Assembly: GCA_016190485.1 (NCBI GenBank)
Contig: JACPQN010000093.1
Coordinates: 1-55,463, forward strand
DNA from: Chloroflexota bacterium
Lineage (GTDB): Bacteria > Chloroflexota > Dehalococcoidia > SHYD01
Direction of reading: 5' to 3'
DNA: 55,463 bases
The notes below the pieces were generated by a model that ran no database searches, was not told where the DNA came from, and was given only the letters and a program-made list of their open reading frames with translations. The stretch's first letter is position 1. Each line of letters begins with the position of its first letter. Below, piece by piece: positions 12,064-20,003 of the stretch. Both the position numbers and the translations under genes were made by a program.

Positions 12064-14697
12064 ATGTCCTCCGACACCTCCCTCACCCCCATCCGGCGCC
12101 AGTACCTGGAGCTGAAGGCCCGCTACCCGGGGGCTATCCTCTTCTTCCGCCTGGGCGACTTCTACGAGACCTTCGACCAGGACGCCGAGCTGGTGGCCCG
12201 GGAGCTGGAGATCACCCTCACCTCCCGCCCCCTGGGCAAGCAGGGGCGGGTGCCCCTGGCGGGGGTGCCCTACCACGCGGTGGAGGGCTACCTCTCCAAG
12301 CTCATCGCCAAGGGCTACCGGGTGGCCATCTGCGAGCAGCTGGCCGACCCAGCCAAGACCAGGGGCATCGTGCCCAGGGGCGTGGTGCGGGTGGTGACCC
12401 CCGGCACCGTGGTGGAGCCGCAGCTCCTGGCCAGCAAGCAGAACAACTATCTGGTGGCCTTCGCGCCGGCCCGGCCCACCCAGGCGGGCAGGCCCACCCT
12501 CAGGGCCGGGCGGCTTGACCTCGGCCAGGCCGGCATCGCCTACATCGACATCACCACCAGCGCGTTCGGGGTGACCCAGCTCCCCCTGGAGCAGGCCCTG
12601 GCGGAGCTGGAGCGCCTGGGGCCCGCGGAGGTGCTGGCGCCCGCCGGGGCTGAGGAGCTGCCGGTCCTCCCCGGCGTGGTGACCCCGGTGGCCGACGCCT
12701 GGTTCGACCCGGAGCGGGCCCAGGCGCGGCTGAAGCAGCACTTCGGGGTGGCGACCCTGGAGGGCTACGGCTGCCAGGGACTGCCCTGGGCCACGGCCGC
12801 GGCCGGGGCGGTGCTGGCCTACCTGGAGGAGACCCAGCCGGCCGCCCTGTCCCTGGTGACCCGCCTTCACACCTACTCCACGGACCAGTGGATGTACCTG
12901 GACCCCCAGACCAGGCGCAACCTGGAGCTGTTTCAGCGCTCGCGGTCCTCGACGCCGGAGGGATCGCTGCTGGCGGTGCTGGACCTTACCAGGACGGCCA
13001 TGGGTGGGCGAATGCTGCGCCGCTGGCTGGAGCGTCCGCTGCTGGAGATGGAGCCGCTGCTCCGGCGGCAGGATGCGGTGGAGGCCCTTTACCGGACGGC
13101 CATGGCCCGGAGTGAGGTCCTCCACCTGCTGGGGCGCATGCCCGACCTGGAGCGGCTGATCAACCGGGTCCGCGCCGGCTACGCCACGCCCAGGGAGCTG
13201 GTGGCCCTGCGGGAGGGTCTGGAGCTGGCGCCGCGCCTGCGGGAGGCTCTGGAGCGAGGGGAGGGCAGCCGTCCCCTGGCGTCCCTCGTCCCCAGCGGGG
13301 GGACCTGCGCCGACCTCGCGGCCCTGATCGGCGCCGCCATCCGGCCAGATCCGCCCGCGGCCCGGGACCAGAGCGAGGTCATCCGGCGGGGCTTCTCGCC
13401 GGAGCTGGACGGGCTGCGGGACGCCGCCGCCGGCGCCCAGGAGCGCCTGGCGGGCCTGGAGCGGCGGGAGCGGGAGCGCACCGGCATCCGGTCGCTGAAG
13501 GTGGGGTACAACAAGGTCTTCGGCTACTACCTGGAAATCAGCAACACCCACCGTCGGCTCGTCCCGCCGGACTATCTGCGCAAGCAGACCCTGGTGGGCG
13601 CCGAGCGCTTCTATACCCCGGAGCTGAAGGAGCTGGAGATAGCTATTCTGCACGCTCAGGAGCGGGCCCTGGAGCTGGAGCAGGAGCTTTTTCGCCAGGT
13701 CTGCGCCCAGGTGGCTGCGGCGGGCGAGCAGGTGCTGGACCTGGCCAGCGCGCTGGCGGAGCTGGACTGCTACGGCGCCCTGGCGGAGGCAGCAGAGCGT
13801 TACGGCTACGTGCGGCCGACCCTGAACGGGGGCGACGCCATCCGCATCGTGGACGGGCGTCACCCCGTGGTGGAGCGCTTTCTGGAGGACGGCGCCTTTG
13901 TGCCCAACGATGCCCTGCTGCAGAACGAGGACTGCCAGATCGCCATCATCACCGGCCCCAACATGGCGGGCAAGTCCACCTACCTGCGCCAGGTGGCCCT
14001 CATCGTCCTCATGGCCCAGATCGGCTCCTACGTGCCGGCGGCCGCGGCCACCATCGGGTTGGTGGACCGGATCTTCACCCGGGTGGGCGCCCAGGACGAC
14101 CTGGCCCGGGGCGAGTCCACCTTCATGGTGGAGATGGCCGAGACGGCCAACATCCTGCGCCACGCCACCCGCCGCTCCCTGGTGGTGCTGGACGAGATCG
14201 GCCGGGGGACCAGCACCTACGACGGCATCTCCATCGCCCGGGCCGTGGTGGAGCTGCTGCACAACAGCCCGCCGCTGGCGGCCAAGACCCTCTTTGCCAC
14301 CCACTACCACGAGCTGACGGCCCTCAGCGGCTACCTGCCCAGGGTGCGCAACTTCACCTTCGCGGTGGCCGAGGAGGGGGGATCGGTGGTCTTCCTCCGC
14401 CGCATCCTGCCGGGCGGCGGCGACAAGAGCTACGGCATCCACGTGGCCCGGCTGGCCGGGCTGCCGGAGAGCGTGGTCCGCCGCGCGGAGGAGGTGCTCC
14501 AGGAGCTGGAGGGCCAGCGCAGCGGAGACGGGAGACCGCTCCGGGAACACCGCAAGCCGGAGGGTCGCCAACTCCCCCTGCTGGACAGCGTCGGCGCCCT
14601 GCGAGAGGAACTGCTGAGCGTGGACCTCAACGGGCTGACCCCCCTGGAGGCCCTGAACCTCCTGTACCAGCTCCAGCAGAAGGCCAGGGACGGCTAG
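12064..14697 (+). CDS. mutS: DNA mismatch repair protein MutS
   Basis: Recognises mismatches and starts repair. The 877-residue protein has the mismatch-reading GDFYETF motif (~residue 35), connector and lever domains, and the ATPase: GPNMAGKSTYLRQ (~631), the TRVGAQDDLARGESTFMVEM signature, the Walker B VVLDEIGRGTSTYDG, and ATHYHEL. Length is typical. It begins 6 bp after the AT-rich island, with immediate return to high-GC codon use. Its TAG stop shares a CTAG tetramer with the convergent DUF5317 gene. mutL is not in the window. Confidence 0.97.
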   Translation: MSSDTSLTPIRRQYLELKARYPGAILFFRLGDFYETFDQDAELVARELEITLTSRPLGKQGRVPLAGVPYHAVEGYLSKLIAKGYRVAICEQLADPAKTRGIVPRGVVRVVTPGTVVEPQLLASKQNNYLVAFAPARPTQAGRPTLRAGRLDLGQAGIAYIDITTSAFGVTQLPLEQALAELERLGPAEVLAPAGAEELPVLPGVVTPVADAWFDPERAQARLKQHFGVATLEGYGCQGLPWATAAAGAVLAYLEETQPAALSLVTRLHTYSTDQWMYLDPQTRRNLELFQRSRSSTPEGSLLAVLDLTRTAMGGRMLRRWLERPLLEMEPLLRRQDAVEALYRTAMARSEVLHLLGRMPDLERLINRVRAGYATPRELVALREGLELAPRLREALERGEGSRPLASLVPSGGTCADLAALIGAAIRPDPPAARDQSEVIRRGFSPELDGLRDAAAGAQERLAGLERRERERTGIRSLKVGYNKVFGYYLEISNTHRRLVPPDYLRKQTLVGAERFYTPELKELEIAILHAQERALELEQELFRQVCAQVAAAGEQVLDLASALAELDCYGALAEAAERYGYVRPTLNGGDAIRIVDGRHPVVERFLEDGAFVPNDALLQNEDCQIAIITGPNMAGKSTYLRQVALIVLMAQIGSYVPAAAATIGLVDRIFTRVGAQDDLARGESTFMVEMAETANILRHATRRSLVVLDEIGRGTSTYDGISIARAVVELLHNSPPLAAKTLFATHYHELTALSGYLPRVRNFTFAVAEEGGSVVFLRRILPGGGDKSYGIHVARLAGLPESVVRRAEEVLQELEGQRSGDGRPLREHRKPEGRQLPLLDSVGALREELLSVDLNGLTPLEALNLLYQLQQKARDG

Positions 14698-15260
14698 CCA
14701 CCCGCGGCCGGCGCAGGACTCTGAACCGGCTGGGTGACCGTGTTGATCAGCAGGACCACGCCCAGAGCCAGCGCCACGTCGCCGGGGCTGACCACCGCGG
14801 AGACCGGCAGGGGCACGGGGATCCAGTCCCCCAGCCAGGCGAGGGGTGTGGCGTCGGAGGCCAGGGTGTGGATGACGTCGGCGCCCGCCCGGAGCTGCTC
14901 CAGGCTCCGAGTCTTACCCAGCAGCGCCAGCGCCTCGGCCACCACGGGCATACGCCCGCCGTTGGCGGCCACGGCCACGCAGTTCAGCGCCGTGCCCGCG
15001 ATGAGGAGGCCCATCCAGGGCAGGCGCCGATTGGCGGCCAGGGGCGCCAGCAGCAGCCCGTAGACCAGCAGGTGCAACCCGGGGGCGTAGGCGCTCAGTC
15101 CCCACAACCCCTCGCCACCGAAGCGCGCCAGGGCCAGCTTGAGGGCGAACGCCCCTACCAGAAGCCACCAGAACCGGAAGCGCACCTGCGCCAGGAGCCG
15201 CAGATCGCCTCGGCGGAGCAGGGCCACGGCCAGCCCCAGCAGCACGCTACTCGTGAGCAT
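14694..15260 (-). CDS. DUF5317 family membrane protein
   Basis: A 188-residue integral membrane protein with about five hydrophobic segments. It has the family-like NGGRMPV motif near residue 100 and a VSPGDVALALG segment before the last helix. Function unknown. It overlaps the end of the HD-GYP gene by 14 bp, so it is translated in the same operon. Its stop is formed by the same CTAG as the mutS stop on the other strand. Confidence 0.7.
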   Translation of the reverse strand: MLTSSVLLGLAVALLRRGDLRLLAQVRFRFWWLLVGAFALKLALARFGGEGLWGLSAYAPGLHLLVYGLLLAPLAANRRLPWMGLLIAGTALNCVAVAANGGRMPVVAEALALLGKTRSLEQLRAGADVIHTLASDATPLAWLGDWIPVPLPVSAVVSPGDVALALGVVLLINTVTQPVQSPAPAAGG

Positions 15261-16539
15261 CGTGCTCTCCCTGAGCCCGCAGCAGCTCCACCTCGCCGGG
15301 CCAGTGGATGGTGAGGAAGGCGCTCACTACTGCGGGGTCGAACTGGCTGCCGCTGTTACGCTCGATCTCGTCCCTGGCCTCCTCCCAGGAGTAGGGTCTC
15401 CGGTAGGGCCGCCCGAAGTACATGGCGTCGAAGGCATCCACCACCGAGATGATGCGAGACCCCAGGGGGATCGCATCGCCCGCCAGCCCATCGGGGTAGC
15501 CGGAGCCGTCGAAGCGCTCGTGGTGGTGGCGCACGATCCCCGCGACCTCCCGGAGGTGCTCGTAGGGCTCCAGGAGCTGGGCGCCATCGGCAGGATGCCG
15601 GCGCGCCACCTCCCATTCCTCCGCCGTCAGCGACCCCGGTTTCAGGAGTACCCGATCCGGCATGCCCAGCTTCCCCACATCATGGAGCAGCCCCGCGACG
15701 TACAGCGACTCCAGGCTCCCCCCTCGCATCCCACACACCGCGCCCAGGCGCTGCGCGAAGACCGCGATACGCTGGGTGTGGCCCGCGGTCTCGTGCTCCC
15801 GCAGGTCCAGGCTGTCCGCCAGGGACTGCACTACCTGGGTGTAGAACTGCCGCACCAGGGCGGAGTTCCGCAGGCCGTAGTAGCTGGCCACCAGGGGAAG
15901 GCCCAGGAGCACCACCGCCAAGGGGCTGACCCTGGTGTAGGTGAGGCTCAGGGTGGCGCCGTAGGCCCCCAGGGTGAGGTAGCTCACGTGGGTAAGGGTG
16001 GAGCTCGCGGAGCGCCAGACGGCGTAAACCGAGCGCCCGGAGGAGAACGCCACCGCGATGGCCACCAGCAGGGTGTTGAGGGTCCCGTAGCAGACGGCGG
16101 CCACAAGGCTCGCGACAATGAACCACCACACCTCCTGGCCCGGGTTCAGCCCGTTGACGTACTGAAACACCACCGCGCCGGCGCCACCGCACAGGGCGAA
16201 CATGGAGCGGTTAAAGAGCAGCTTGCTAAGGTCAGTCTTGCCCGTCAGGTCCCGAGCGGAGAGGCTAGCCACGGAGATAATGAGCGCGGCCAGGGGCGGG
16301 CTGAACAGGGTGAGGTTCGCGGTGGTGACGGCCAGCCCCACCGAGACCCGCATGCGCTGGGTCTCGAAGTGGGCGATGTCGAACTGCACGGCATGGGCGG
16401 CAAGGCCCGCCCCGATCCAGAAGAGGATGTCCGACCACGCGAAAGAGACCGGGCCGTAGACGCTAAACAGCAGCAAAAGAACGGCGATTGTGCACGTGTG
16501 CACAATCGCCAGATAGACGACCGTCCGACGGTTGGTCAC
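15247..16539 (-). CDS. Membrane HD-GYP domain phosphodiesterase (putative sensor)
   Basis: Likely degrades cyclic di-GMP. The N-terminal ~230 residues contain about seven hydrophobic segments (for example ALIISVASLSA and VAAVCYGTLNTLLVAIAV), a membrane sensor module. The C-terminal ~190 residues form an HD-GYP domain: GHTQRIA, LLHDVGKLGMPD, HPADGAQLL, HHHERFDGSGYP and SVVDAFDAM. The GTG start at 16539 overlaps the TGA of a 7-codon leader ORF. A 13-bp-arm inverted repeat lies within the first 20 codons. The two small secreted-peptide genes lie directly upstream on the same strand, making it a candidate receptor. Confidence 0.9.
   Translation of the reverse strand: MTNRRTVVYLAIVHTCTIAVLLLLFSVYGPVSFAWSDILFWIGAGLAAHAVQFDIAHFETQRMRVSVGLAVTTANLTLFSPPLAALIISVASLSARDLTGKTDLSKLLFNRSMFALCGGAGAVVFQYVNGLNPGQEVWWFIVASLVAAVCYGTLNTLLVAIAVAFSSGRSVYAVWRSASSTLTHVSYLTLGAYGATLSLTYTRVSPLAVVLLGLPLVASYYGLRNSALVRQFYTQVVQSLADSLDLREHETAGHTQRIAVFAQRLGAVCGMRGGSLESLYVAGLLHDVGKLGMPDRVLLKPGSLTAEEWEVARRHPADGAQLLEPYEHLREVAGIVRHHHERFDGSGYPDGLAGDAIPLGSRIISVVDAFDAMYFGRPYRRPYSWEEARDEIERNSGSQFDPAVVSAFLTIHWPGEVELLRAQGEHDAHE
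16483..16510. promoter_or_regulatory. Inverted repeat inside the start of the HD-GYP gene
   Basis: Arms GGCGATTGTGCAC and GTGCACAATCGCC with a 2-bp spacer, a perfect 13-bp match, about 30 bp inside the coding region. It could be a protein-binding site, or fold in RNA as a 12-bp stem with a 4-nt loop near the start codon. Confidence 0.6.
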
Positions 16540-16559
16540 TTACGCCCCGGCTGCTCCAT
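16536..16559 (-). CDS. Seven-codon leader ORF coupled to the HD-GYP gene
   Basis: ATG at 16559 encodes MEQPGRK and ends in TGA, which overlaps the GTG start of the HD-GYP gene as GTGA. GAGGAG lies 6 nt upstream of this ATG, a much better ribosome-binding site than the HD-GYP start itself has. It therefore probably feeds ribosomes to the downstream start. Its peptide is unlikely to have a function of its own. Confidence 0.55.
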   Translation of the reverse strand: MEQPGRK

Positions 16560-16573
16560 ACTCTTCTCCTCGT

Positions 16574-16579
16574 ATTATA
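16574..16579 (-). promoter_or_regulatory. Candidate -10 element for the HD-GYP gene
   Basis: A perfect TATAAT on the minus strand just upstream of the leader ORF. No good -35 hexamer is seen at 16-18 bp, so an internal, activator-dependent promoter is possible. Confidence 0.4.
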
Positions 16580-16600
16580 GAGGGACGGGTGACAGTATTT

Positions 16601-16705
16601 CTATCCCCAATCCACGTCGCCGCCGGCGGCCAGCGCCAGGGAGGTGAGGACCAGAACGGCCTGCAAGACCAGGGGCCACAGGACGGCCTTCATCCACCGC
16701 TGCAT
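16601..16705 (-). CDS. Small secreted-peptide gene, copy 1 (34 aa)
   Basis: A 34-codon ORF starting MQRWMKAVLW, with a basic N-region, a ~20-residue hydrophobic core and a C-terminal AGGDVDWG. GAAGGAG lies 7 nt before the ATG. The profile is a signal peptide with an Ala-Leu-Ala cleavage site (residues 24-26), leaving the octapeptide AGGDVDWG. It could alternatively stay as a one-helix membrane peptide. A near-identical copy lies 180 bp upstream. The two differ by one conservative residue plus silent changes, which suggests selection for the protein. It lies 61 bp before the HD-GYP gene, same strand. No known family recognised. Confidence 0.7.
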   Translation of the reverse strand: MQRWMKAVLWPLVLQAVLVLTSLALAAGGDVDWG

Positions 16706-16780
16706 GATTGTGCTCCTTCTTTGATGTGTCGCTTGGGGGTATGAACGCTTATTCAGTTGTAACGCTGGGGCTCTGAGCGG

Positions 16781-16885
16781 CTATCCCCAGTCCACGTCGC
16801 CGCCGGCAGCCAGCACCAGGGAGGTGAGGACCAGAACGGCCTGCAAGACCAGGGGCCACAGGACGGCCTTCATCCACCGCTGCAT
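16781..16885 (-). CDS. Small secreted-peptide gene, copy 2 (34 aa)
   Basis: A tandem paralogue of the gene at 16601-16705, with the same length, ribosome-binding site (AGAAGGAG) and C-terminus. The only residue change is Ala24 to Val, at the -3 position of the predicted signal-peptidase site, where both residues are accepted. Other differences (GCC/GCT, GAT/GAC) are silent. The predicted mature octapeptide is identical. It is the promoter-proximal gene of the minus-strand cluster. Confidence 0.7.
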   Translation of the reverse strand: MQRWMKAVLWPLVLQAVLVLTSLVLAAGGDVDWG

Positions 16886-16997
16886 GATCGTGCTCCTTCT
16901 GGGGTGAAAGTTGTGGTTTTCCCGCACCGGTTATTAAGTTGTGATCCTCATCACCTCCTTTGTTTGTGGTTAAGGTTGGTCTAGGGAAAACCAGGAT

Positions 16998-17037
16998 ATT
17001 GTACTCCTTTCTCCAGCGATAGGACAGGTCTACCTGT
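16998..17037 (-). promoter_or_regulatory. Candidate promoter and operator of the peptide genes
   Basis: TACAAT (minus strand, 16998-17003) fits a -10. At the -35 position lies a palindrome, ACAGGT-CT-ACCTGT (17024-17037), instead of a consensus hexamer. This arrangement suggests an activator-dependent promoter, which is inference. Confidence 0.4.
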
Positions 17038-17113
17038 GGAAAAAAACCTTTAGATCGTTCTTAGCGCCTGAACCCAGCACGCCCGGGCAGAGCACACTAC
17101 CATCTCCATTGAA

Positions 17114-17293: not shown

Positions 17294-19009
17294 GTGGCAC
17301 GAAAGTTTTCTCTTCACATATGGGTCTCCCTCCTCTTGGCGTTCGGCCTGGCCGCAGGCGGCTGTGCCCAGCAGTCCGGGCCCGCCGCGCCGCCAGGAGG
17401 AGCGCCACCGGCCCAGGGGTCCGCGCCCAAGGGTGGCGAGTTCCGTATCAACATGTCCACGGAGCCCGACACCATTGACCCCAACCGGGCCAACTTCACC
17501 ACCTCTATCCTGGTGGCCTCCCAGGTCTTCGAGGGGCTGCTGACCTACGACAAAGACCTCAAGCTGGTGCCCGGGGTCACCCGGGAGGTGCCCTCGGTGG
17601 CCAACGGTGGCATCTCCAGTGACGGCAAAACCTACACCTTCAAGCTCCGCAGCGGCCTCAAGTGGAGCGACGGCAAGCCCCTCACCGCCAAGGACTTCGT
17701 CTTCACCATCAAACGCAGCCTGGACCCCAAACTGGCGGCGCCCTACGCCAACACCCTGTATGACATCCAGGGAGCCGAGGCCTACAACACCGCCCTGGGC
17801 ACCAAGGACGCCCGCAAGGAGGCCTCCGACGCGCAGCTTGCCGCCCTGCGGGAGGCCGTAGCCGTCACCGCGCCGGACGACGGGACCCTGATGGTAAAGC
17901 TCGCCAACCCCCGGCCCTCCTTCCTCCAGCTCATGGCCCTCTGGGTGGCTTGGCCGGTTCGGGAGGATATCGTGACCCAGTTTGGAGAGAAGTGGACGGA
18001 GCCGCCCAACTACATCGGCAATGGCGCCTTTGTCCTTGCTAGATGGGCCCACAACGAGCGGCTGGAGTTCACGCCGAACCCCAACTACCACGGCCAGAAG
18101 CCCAACCTGGACAAGCTGGTCTTCCTGATGATCAGCGACGCCAACCAGGCCTATCTGGCCTATGTGAACGGGGAGCTGGAAGCCACCGCGGTGCCCGACG
18201 CCAACACCAAGCTGGTCATGGCCGACACCAGCCTCGCCAACCAGACGGTACGCTATAACGAACTGGTGATCTTCGGGTTCGAGTTCAACGCCAAGTCACC
18301 CCCCTTCGATAGCGCGAAGGTGCGCCACGCCTTCGCCATGGGGGTGGACCGCAACGCCCTCATTGAGAAGGTGGCCCAGGGCGTCGGGAAGGTTGCCTAT
18401 AGCCCCGTGCCGCCGGGCATGCCCGGCCACGACGCCAGTGTGGGGAAGGAGTTCGACTTCAACCCCGCCAAAGCCAAGCAACTCCTGGCCGAGGCCGGCT
18501 ATTCCGACCCCACCAAACTGCCTAAGATCACCTTCTCCTTCACCGATACCTCCTCCAACCGGATCCGGGCCGAGTTCTTCCAGGGCCAGATGAAGCAGAA
18601 CCTGGGGGTGGAGGTGACCCTGGATCCCCTGGATTCCAGGACCTACCAGCAGCGGTTCAACGCCGGCCAGTTCCAGATGGTCTACGGCGGCTGGGGCGCC
18701 GACTATCCCGACCCCGACAACTTCGTGCCCGAGCTGTTCAAGACCGGCTCCGGCAACAACCATACGAACTACAGTAATCCCCAGGTGGATGTCCAAGCGA
18801 AGGCCTGCCAGAGCGAGACCGACGAAGCCAAGCGCTTGGCCGCCTGCGCTCAGGCTCAGAAGCTGGTGGTGGGGGACCAGCCCTGGGTCTTTCTCTTCTA
18901 CCGAGAGCGCTTCTGGCTGCTGAAGCCCTCCATCAAAGGCTTCCAGGTGACGGCCAAGGACCAGTTGCCGGGCAACCGCTTCTACAACCAGCTCTACGTC
19001 CAGAAGTAG
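17294..19009 (+). CDS. ABC transporter peptide/nickel-type substrate-binding lipoprotein (SBP family 5)
   Basis: Captures a peptide or similar ligand outside the membrane and hands it to the two permeases downstream. The 571-residue protein has a lipoprotein signal with lipobox AGGC (Cys24), a Pro/Gly linker, and the family 5 domain. Landmarks are STEPDTIDPN, the YTFKLRSGLKWSDGKPLTAKDFVFT signature (key part GLKWSDGKPLTA) and SPVPPGMPGHD. GTG start with AAAGGAG. Substrate cannot be predicted. No ATPase gene follows in the cluster. Confidence 0.92.
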   Translation: MARKFSLHIWVSLLLAFGLAAGGCAQQSGPAAPPGGAPPAQGSAPKGGEFRINMSTEPDTIDPNRANFTTSILVASQVFEGLLTYDKDLKLVPGVTREVPSVANGGISSDGKTYTFKLRSGLKWSDGKPLTAKDFVFTIKRSLDPKLAAPYANTLYDIQGAEAYNTALGTKDARKEASDAQLAALREAVAVTAPDDGTLMVKLANPRPSFLQLMALWVAWPVREDIVTQFGEKWTEPPNYIGNGAFVLARWAHNERLEFTPNPNYHGQKPNLDKLVFLMISDANQAYLAYVNGELEATAVPDANTKLVMADTSLANQTVRYNELVIFGFEFNAKSPPFDSAKVRHAFAMGVDRNALIEKVAQGVGKVAYSPVPPGMPGHDASVGKEFDFNPAKAKQLLAEAGYSDPTKLPKITFSFTDTSSNRIRAEFFQGQMKQNLGVEVTLDPLDSRTYQQRFNAGQFQMVYGGWGADYPDPDNFVPELFKTGSGNNHTNYSNPQVDVQAKACQSETDEAKRLAACAQAQKLVVGDQPWVFLFYRERFWLLKPSIKGFQVTAKDQLPGNRFYNQLYVQK

Positions 19010-19094
19010 CACTCGGTGCCTTTGGACAGCGCACGGGACCAGCGCCCGCGCAGCAGCCCATGCTGATCCCACTATTTATGCGGAGCTGAGCGGC

Positions 19095-20003
19095 ATGTTC
19101 GTGCTGCGGCGGGTCCTCTGGCTGGGGCCTGTCCTCCTCTCCGTCTCCTTCATCACCTTTGTGCTGATGCACCTGGTGCCCGGCGGCCCTTGGGATTCGG
19201 ACAAGACCCTGCCGCCAGCGGTGATCGAAAACCTGAACCGGCGCTACGGCCTGGATCAGCCTTACTGGCAGCAGTACTTGAGCTTCCTGGCGCGCGCGCT
19301 CCAGGGTGACCTGGGCCTCTCCTTCATCCGGCAGAATCAGACGGTGTCGGAGATCCTGCTGCAGGGGCTGCCGGTCACCGCCAGCCTGGCGGTCCTGGCG
19401 CTGGTCCTGGCGCTGGTCACGGGGCTCACCCTGGGTGTCGTGGCGGCCTTCCGGCAGAACACCTGGGTGGACTATCTGTGCGTCGCCTTCGCGACCCTGG
19501 GGGCCAGTACCCCCAGCTTCGTCCTTGGCATCCTGCTGGTGCTGACGCTGGCCCTGGGGCTGAAGGTGGTGCCCACCAGCGGATGGGGCCAGCCGCAGCA
19601 CCTGGTGCTGCCGGCCCTCACGCTGACCGCGCTACCGGCGGCCTACATCGCCCGCATCACCCGCTCCTCCATGCTGGATGTAATCCACCAGGACTACGTG
19701 CGCACGGCCCGGGCCAAGGGGCTGGCGGAGCAGGTGGTCATCCTGCGCCACGTGCTGCGCAATGCGCTCATCCCCGTCCTCACGGTGGCCGGACCTATCG
19801 GCGCGCACCTGGCGGCGGGGTCCTTTGTCATCGAGACCCTCTTTGCCGTGCCCGGCGTGGGGCGCCTCTTCGTGCAGTCGGTCCTGGCCCGGGACTACGG
19901 CCTCATCATGGGGGCCACCCTCTTCTACACAGTGATCATCTCCCTGGCCAACCTGGCGGTGGACATCCTCTACGCCGTGGTTGACCCCCGGATCCGATAC
20001 TAG
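19095..20003 (+). CDS. ABC transporter permease, DppB/OppB type
   Basis: Membrane channel subunit of a peptide-type importer, 302 residues. The N-terminal helix starts FVLRRVLWLGPVLLSV, followed by a periplasmic loop and five more helices. The cytoplasmic EAA loop reads DYVRTARAKGLAEQVVILRH. The C-terminus is the typical VDILYAVVDPRIRY. It lies 85 bp after the binding protein and 9 bp before the second permease, so the three form one operon. Confidence 0.93.
   Translation: MFVLRRVLWLGPVLLSVSFITFVLMHLVPGGPWDSDKTLPPAVIENLNRRYGLDQPYWQQYLSFLARALQGDLGLSFIRQNQTVSEILLQGLPVTASLAVLALVLALVTGLTLGVVAAFRQNTWVDYLCVAFATLGASTPSFVLGILLVLTLALGLKVVPTSGWGQPQHLVLPALTLTALPAAYIARITRSSMLDVIHQDYVRTARAKGLAEQVVILRHVLRNALIPVLTVAGPIGAHLAAGSFVIETLFAVPGVGRLFVQSVLARDYGLIMGATLFYTVIISLANLAVDILYAVVDPRIRY

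Follow-up and report, generated by a model that had tools for sequence, protein, structure and literature searches.

Two short, unannotated open reading frames (ORFs) lie in tandem upstream of a gene for a membrane-bound HD-GYP protein and a gene for a DUF5317 membrane protein on contig JACPQN010000093.1 of a Chloroflexota bacterium (assembly GCA_016190485.1), and the question raised by this locus is whether they encode a peptide signal that is read by the neighbouring cyclic di-GMP (c-di-GMP) enzyme. The window analysed here is the whole stretch of 55,463 nucleotides. Little is known about peptide signalling outside Bacillota, and few c-di-GMP enzymes have a known extracellular input. An earlier note on this DNA had proposed that the C-terminal octapeptide AGGDVDWG of the two products is an autoinducer, the HD-GYP protein its receptor and DUF5317 an accessory partner. 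Our results show that the two genes belong to a widespread family of short peptides of exported type, apparently not described before, whose genes nearly always lie beside DUF5317 and a sensor, and they suggest a peptide-signalling module of a new kind.

Both 34-codon ORFs were found on the minus strand exactly where the earlier note had placed them, peptide gene 1 at 16781..16885 (MQRWMKAVLWPLVLQAVLVLTSLVLAAGGDVDWG, 34 amino acids) and peptide gene 2 at 16601..16705 (MQRWMKAVLWPLVLQAVLVLTSLALAAGGDVDWG, 34 amino acids). The common sequence is MQRWMKAVLWPLVLQAVLVLTSL[V/A]LAAGGDVDWG, thus both end in AGGDVDWG, and neither contains cysteine or has a meaningful Pfam or NCBIfam match. The strong ribosome-binding sites which had been claimed are present as AAGGAG, at 16893..16898 and 16713..16718 of the minus strand, 7 nt ahead of the ATG in both cases. 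Of the three bases in which the ORFs differ, one changes an amino acid and two are silent; the 75 nt 5' of each ORF show only 60% identity in a global alignment. This pattern was described correctly, but selection could not be deduced from it, since gene conversion between two copies would look alike. The argument that the Ala24/Val change is tolerated at the -3 cleavage position is weaker than claimed, because it rests on a presumed cleavage site.

Loci with DUF5317 were gathered by profile search from 100 relatives and 400 genomes of the phylum, and a scan of 84,980 species, one genome each, added further loci from Bacillota, Chloroflexota, Actinomycetota, Bipolaricaulota/Acetothermia, Spirochaetes, Aerophobetes and others. 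When ORFs were selected by a simple rule (Shine-Dalgarno sequence, 20-45 codons, hydrophobic core, short tail, at most 3.5 kb from DUF5317), 51 were obtained on the DUF5317 strand versus 9 on the other strand in 80 loci, and 14 versus 2 in a second set of 34 loci. The products align without gaps over the core and most of them end in L-A-G-G-A-x-x-[K/R]-W-G. A family profile was built from 31 peptides with a threshold of 12. The window peptides, which lie within 3.5 kb of DUF5317, scored 30.9 (gene 1) and 30.4 (gene 2), and of the other 548 small ORFs of the window none reached the threshold. The earlier note had asked for similar ORFs beside homologous genes and held that their absence in relatives would speak against it; family members were found in 99 of the 126 DUF5317 loci, in several phyla (94 on the same strand and 5 on the opposite one, the latter looking genuine but divergent in orientation). 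Among the loci which had not contributed to the profile, 26 of 34 contained a member (24 same strand, 2 opposite), all 30 seed loci were recovered in a leave-one-out test, and a single weak match occurred in 469 kb of distal flank.

The products encoded by the members are 23-48 residues long, and almost all contain a hydrophobic run of 13-22 residues. The ratio of nonsynonymous to synonymous substitution rates (dN/dS), another check which had been suggested, was 0.16 when pooled over 16 close pairs (bootstrap 0.13-0.20), a ratio biased downward by the choice of the pairs according to protein similarity; judged from these alignments, the codons are under purifying selection. In the finished plasmid of Natranaerobius thermophilus an unannotated ORF, MNKVVLILVTLLGVVLAGGASFTWGGGG, was found independently just before the annotated HD-GYP and DUF5317 genes. 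We regard it as practically certain that the coding family is real and tied to DUF5317. No relative was detected among phages or viral contigs, and a viral origin was rejected. The window belongs to a draft genome of 2.9 Mb with 84% completeness, in which further family ORFs were sought by the DNA pattern of the tail only.

In order to see which neighbour the peptide accompanies, 29 further MASE9 loci were compared, one of them being set aside for its contig end. The peptide was present in 13/13 loci with DUF5317 nearby and in 0/15 without it (p 3e-8), and it is missing beside a second MASE9 gene in the genome from which the window comes; thus the peptide follows DUF5317 and not HD-GYP. The co-occurrence of MASE9 and DUF5317 in the 400 Chloroflexota genomes was about 45/56 (p 2e-17, the overlap being counted by hand from lists). 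The upstream position of the ORFs relative to the HD-GYP and DUF5317 genes was borne out by the coordinates and Pfam matches, and a c-di-GMP enzyme does belong to the module here; however, DUF5317 is the constant member, while HD-GYP is one of several outputs.

The sensory proteins found beside the peptide-DUF5317 pair are MASE9-HD-GYP, GGDEF-HD-GYP, GGDEF-EAL, a histidine kinase or a STAND-TPR-BTAD regulator. The order peptide, MASE9/HD-GYP, DUF5317 occurs in the window, in many Bacillota and in others; DUF5317, peptide, GGDEF-HD-GYP in Bacillaceae and Paenibacillaceae; peptide, MASE9-like histidine kinase, DUF5317 in three loci (L139, L194, L195); and GGDEF-EAL, DUF5317, peptide in L138. In many Chloroflexota a STAND-TPR-BTAD regulator takes the place of HD-GYP, the order being STAND, peptide, DUF5317; the STAND protein has 1040-1090 amino acids with TPR repeats and, where checked, a BTAD domain. 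Both types are joined in loci L189-L192, where peptide and HD-GYP are preceded by a large protein whose start and size resemble those of STAND proteins. The tail sequence differs by sensor class. Tails beginning with proline were present in 14/16 STAND loci versus 4/51 MASE9-type loci (p 3e-9), and basic-aromatic tails in 0/16 versus 39/51, the true contrast being slightly stronger, since L125 was classed as MASE9-type though its STAND gene is split. All STAND loci belong to Chloroflexota, yet the proline is absent where members of this phylum have MASE9-type sensors, as in the window, so the contrast is not due to phylum alone. In L078 the tandem copies themselves have differing tails. The family bears out a conserved C-terminal tail, but not the octapeptide length: the conserved part has 4-6 residues (A-x-x-[K/R]-W-G in most members, here DVDWG). 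By the alignment the functional tail of the window peptides is possibly DVDWG, with AGGDVDWG as the alternative.

A further connection with c-di-GMP was given by riboswitches. In 11 Chloroflexota loci the operon strand carries, ahead of the peptide, a c-di-GMP-II riboswitch that exceeds the Rfam threshold, and in L113 a c-di-GMP-II-GAG riboswitch barely exceeding it (40.9 versus 40 bits) is situated on this strand 179 nt before the peptide start, which makes 12 loci with riboswitches of this class (L164, L167-L169, L171, L174, L175, L179, L180, L183, L154, L113). The distance to the peptide start is 101-131 nt in nine loci; in L154 and L174 the start could not be resolved for this measurement. 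Since the riboswitch precedes the operon, peptide and HD-GYP appear, from the sequences, to be jointly under c-di-GMP control in these lineages. No paper joining the c-di-GMP-II riboswitch with Chloroflexi was found in the open-access literature. Riboswitches of the c-di-GMP-I-GGC type were also seen near MASE9-HD-GYP genes lacking peptide and DUF5317 (L176:3117-3200, L186:3140-3229).

The MASE9-HD-GYP gene of the window (15247..16539, minus strand, GTG start) codes for 430 amino acids, a predicted membrane sensor with a c-di-GMP phosphodiesterase domain. Pfam places MASE9 at 15931..16443 (minus; E 2.5e-10, 41 bits versus a cut-off of 24.3) and HD_5, the HD-GYP domain, at 15328..15822 (minus; residues 240-404, E 2.1e-41, 142 bits versus 27.2). 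HD-GYP domains hydrolyse c-di-GMP, and the HD and GYP catalytic motifs are intact (GHTQR, LLHDVGK, HHHERFDGSGYP, DAFDAM), so the enzyme is predicted to be a c-di-GMP phosphodiesterase. The MASE9 model (predicted local distance difference test, pLDDT, 92) resembles the S-components RibU, FolT, BioY and ThiT, the substrate-binding parts of energy-coupling factor (ECF) vitamin transporters, with Foldseek probabilities of 0.94-1.0, template modelling (TM) scores of about 0.65 on the target and sequence identities of 7-17%; each of the 16 best PDB matches is either an S-component or one of the related cobalt/nickel proteins CbiM/NikM. ECF S-components take small ligands from the outer side, which makes MASE9 a credible peptide receptor as judged from the model. 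The proposal that the HD-GYP protein is the receptor thereby gains indirect support through its MASE9 part, from the S-component-like model, the exchangeable outputs and the riboswitches in relatives.

The DUF5317 gene (14694..15260, minus strand) encodes a five-helix membrane protein of 188 amino acids (PF17248, E 1.8e-34, 119.4 bits versus a curated cut-off of 25). Its start overlaps the end of the HD-GYP gene by 14 bases (15247..15260, minus), which is consistent with translational coupling. The AlphaFold2 model (pLDDT 95, predicted TM score 0.88) had no PDB match. Invariant positions in 69 sequences are G89, N93, N100, G101, G102, P105, D145, G160, D161 and G167, and the conserved outer segment reads NGGxMP ... 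D145 ... SxGD161. Positive charges favour an inner location for loops 1-2 and 3-4 and for the C-tail, which would place segment 100-158 (between helices 4 and 5) outside, with or beside most of the invariant residues; the conserved segment would then be on the same side of the membrane as the tail of a Sec-type precursor. An Agr-like protease function was rejected, since no Cys or His is invariant in the 69 sequences, and the two invariant Asp residues (D145, D161) would allow an aspartyl mechanism, though one that is unsupported.

Taken together, we propose that the tandem genes would give a precursor that begins with basic residues, continues in a hydrophobic core of about 14-17 residues and ends in a short tail. 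The Sec pathway would leave this tail on the outer side of the membrane. DUF5317 would act as a dedicated partner which processes, releases or presents the tail on the outer face. The freed or membrane-held tail, of a length between DVDWG and AGGDVDWG, would be bound by the S-component-like MASE9, and this binding would switch the HD-GYP phosphodiesterase of the same protein; the amount of peptide would thereby determine the c-di-GMP level. Elsewhere the same pair may serve GGDEF, GGDEF-EAL, histidine kinase or cytosolic STAND-TPR-BTAD outputs, the last of which would require import of the peptide. The genome itself encodes GGDEF proteins and two signal peptidase I genes, the latter making export credible. 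That the peptide is sensed by the neighbouring sensor domain is probable. We have modest confidence in the complete module, with an exported peptide, handling by DUF5317, sensing by MASE9 and tuning of c-di-GMP, and release of the peptide as a diffusible signal is likewise slightly favoured. The most far-reaching version, a new secreted-peptide class in several phyla with a DUF5317 of new fold, MASE9 as the direct reader controlling c-di-GMP and riboswitch feedback in some lineages, is tentative and falls just short of an even chance.

Several observations weigh against this module. Secretion and cleavage of the peptide, as well as its binding and the direction of the effect, are inferred, and the hydrophobic run with its small residues could also persist as an uncleaved transmembrane segment. 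The STAND-TPR regulators reside in the cytosol, and the importer which they require lies outside the module. About one fifth of the DUF5317 loci lack the peptide, partly because contigs end, and the best match of MASE9 to an S-component had a Foldseek E value of only 3e-3. No c-di-GMP riboswitch was detected in the window in a search at E<=1, and the bias in the dN/dS pairs has been mentioned above.

The main rival is an uncleaved regulatory micropeptide, that is a single-span protein with its tail outside, functioning as a subunit of a DUF5317-MASE9 complex with no signal passing from cell to cell. It would account for the hydrophobic run in nearly all members and for the strict linkage to another membrane protein, and the cleavage site of the peptides is presumed only. 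However, the 13-14 residues of the run in many members would make a short span, the tail varies with the sensor class and between the tandem copies in L078, and the module of the STAND loci lacks a membrane sensor; we consider this explanation rather unlikely. A small bacteriocin or type I toxin-like peptide, with DUF5317 providing immunity or export and the neighbouring sensor regulating, would also be small, hydrophobic, sometimes tandem and paired with a multi-span membrane protein. The conservation of short tails across phyla, the purifying selection, the constant company of sensory proteins and the riboswitch which governs peptide and phosphodiesterase together make this improbable.

The ORFs might also be leaders or attenuators which control HD-GYP expression solely through being translated. 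In many loci they are situated just 5' of HD-GYP, and in the window a hairpin with a T-rich tail is found at the HD-GYP start. This is difficult to reconcile with the conservation of the amino acids (dN/dS 0.16) and with the position of the peptide after DUF5317 in Bacillaceae and Paenibacillaceae and before it in the STAND loci, thus such a role is highly improbable. Finally, if only the window is considered, two copies that differ in three bases prove little, and one could think of chance ORFs or an artefact of recent duplication. Chance ORFs are ruled out by the background counts (one per 469 kb, compared with members in 99/126 loci), and with the unannotated member in the finished Natranaerobius plasmid practically nothing is left of this explanation.

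When compared with known systems, the proposed module would work like Agr or RRNPP and is a member of neither, because their defining features failed here. In RRNPP/RRNPPA systems (Phr, NprX, PapR, AimP) the precursor is exported by Sec and the mature peptide is imported by Opp. Like these, the present loci have a short Sec-type precursor gene beside a receptor gene, the proposed mature part consists of a few C-terminal residues, and the STAND partners bear TPR repeats as RRNPP receptors do. Unlike them, the partner in the window is a membrane MASE9-HD-GYP protein and not a cytosolic TPR protein, the STAND-BTAD regulators have another architecture, there is a dedicated DUF5317 partner, and the family reaches far beyond Bacillota. 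Agr (AgrD, AgrB, AgrC) is the closest functional analogy, since peptide, multi-span membrane partner and membrane sensor are encoded together; however, the window peptides have no Cys for a thiolactone ring, DUF5317 has neither an invariant Cys or His nor a fold match, no AgrB profile match occurs in the window, and the sensor output here is c-di-GMP turnover or other. The ECF S-components share the predicted fold and the binding of small ligands on the outer side, whereas MASE9 is fused to signalling domains and has no energizing module. Direct control of a c-di-GMP enzyme by an extracellular signal, as proposed here, resembles BDSF-RpfR and the autoinducer-2 (AI-2)-dCACHE cyclase, which respond to a fatty acid and to AI-2, respectively. 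In its passages on quorum signals, a 2022 census of c-di-GMP inputs gives BDSF and AI-2 as signals with receptors and names no peptide (PMC8846402). In Thermotoga maritima, which also has DUF5317 and MASE9, a density-dependent peptide has been proposed to act as a quorum signal with an effect on exopolysaccharide (Johnson et al. 2005, as cited in PMC4187201 and PMC6022435). No paper mentioning DUF5317 was found, and for MASE9 a single unrelated one, in the open-access literature, where absence is not proof. No counterpart of the three-part module was found in the same literature, in agreement with the earlier note.

If the proposal is true, it would provide a ligand class for MASE9, a functional area for DUF5317 and about 100 candidate signals with their sensors in cultured (Paenibacillus, Carboxydothermus) and uncultured species. 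Even if the product is an uncleaved micropeptide, an unannotated conserved family of about 100 members with a constant partner is new.

Other elements of the window were also noted. A promoter-like site, TAGAAA-18-TATAAT, at 16574..16603 (minus), just past peptide gene 2, matches the consensus only and is a possible separate promoter for HD-GYP and DUF5317. The hairpin (13 bp, 16482-16511, minus) lies within the first HD-GYP codons and may be an attenuator or operator, and a 7-codon ORF, MEQPGRK, at 16536-16559 (minus) has its own ribosome-binding site and a TGA overlapping the GTG start of HD-GYP. Divergent from the peptide genes, a peptide-type ATP-binding cassette transporter (SBP_bac_5 and permease, 17294-20003, plus strand) is a possible importer; this linkage is not kept, similar genes, which are common, being near only 6-7 of 80 loci.

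Several additional genes accompany the module in other genomes. A conserved 216-amino-acid protein without Pfam family is encoded on the same strand ahead of it in 21 of 80 loci (L084:3727-4377 and 20 others), and an uncharacterised 666-nt gene takes this position in the Natranaerobius plasmid. In STAND-type loci a protein of 71-109 amino acids follows DUF5317 (L103:6600-6815, L119:6472-6747 and similar), with a weak, below-cut-off match to the Franean1_4349 precursor of ribosomally synthesized and post-translationally modified peptides. In some Chloroflexota DUF5317 runs on into an ORF of 650-680 amino acids (L154:3039-5072, L189:6978-8936, L192:7823-9826), the remainder of which in L154 looks like a major facilitator superfamily transporter, a hint of ligand transport. 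An FtsH-like AAA-M41 protease gene directly follows DUF5317 in L096 (6336-8459), L069 and L148, and in L096 and L148 the peptide-family ORF is on the opposite strand. At L023:1391-1630 two tandem copies of another small signal-peptide-like ORF (...ALATVAGQSAFI) are situated near the family peptide and DUF5317.

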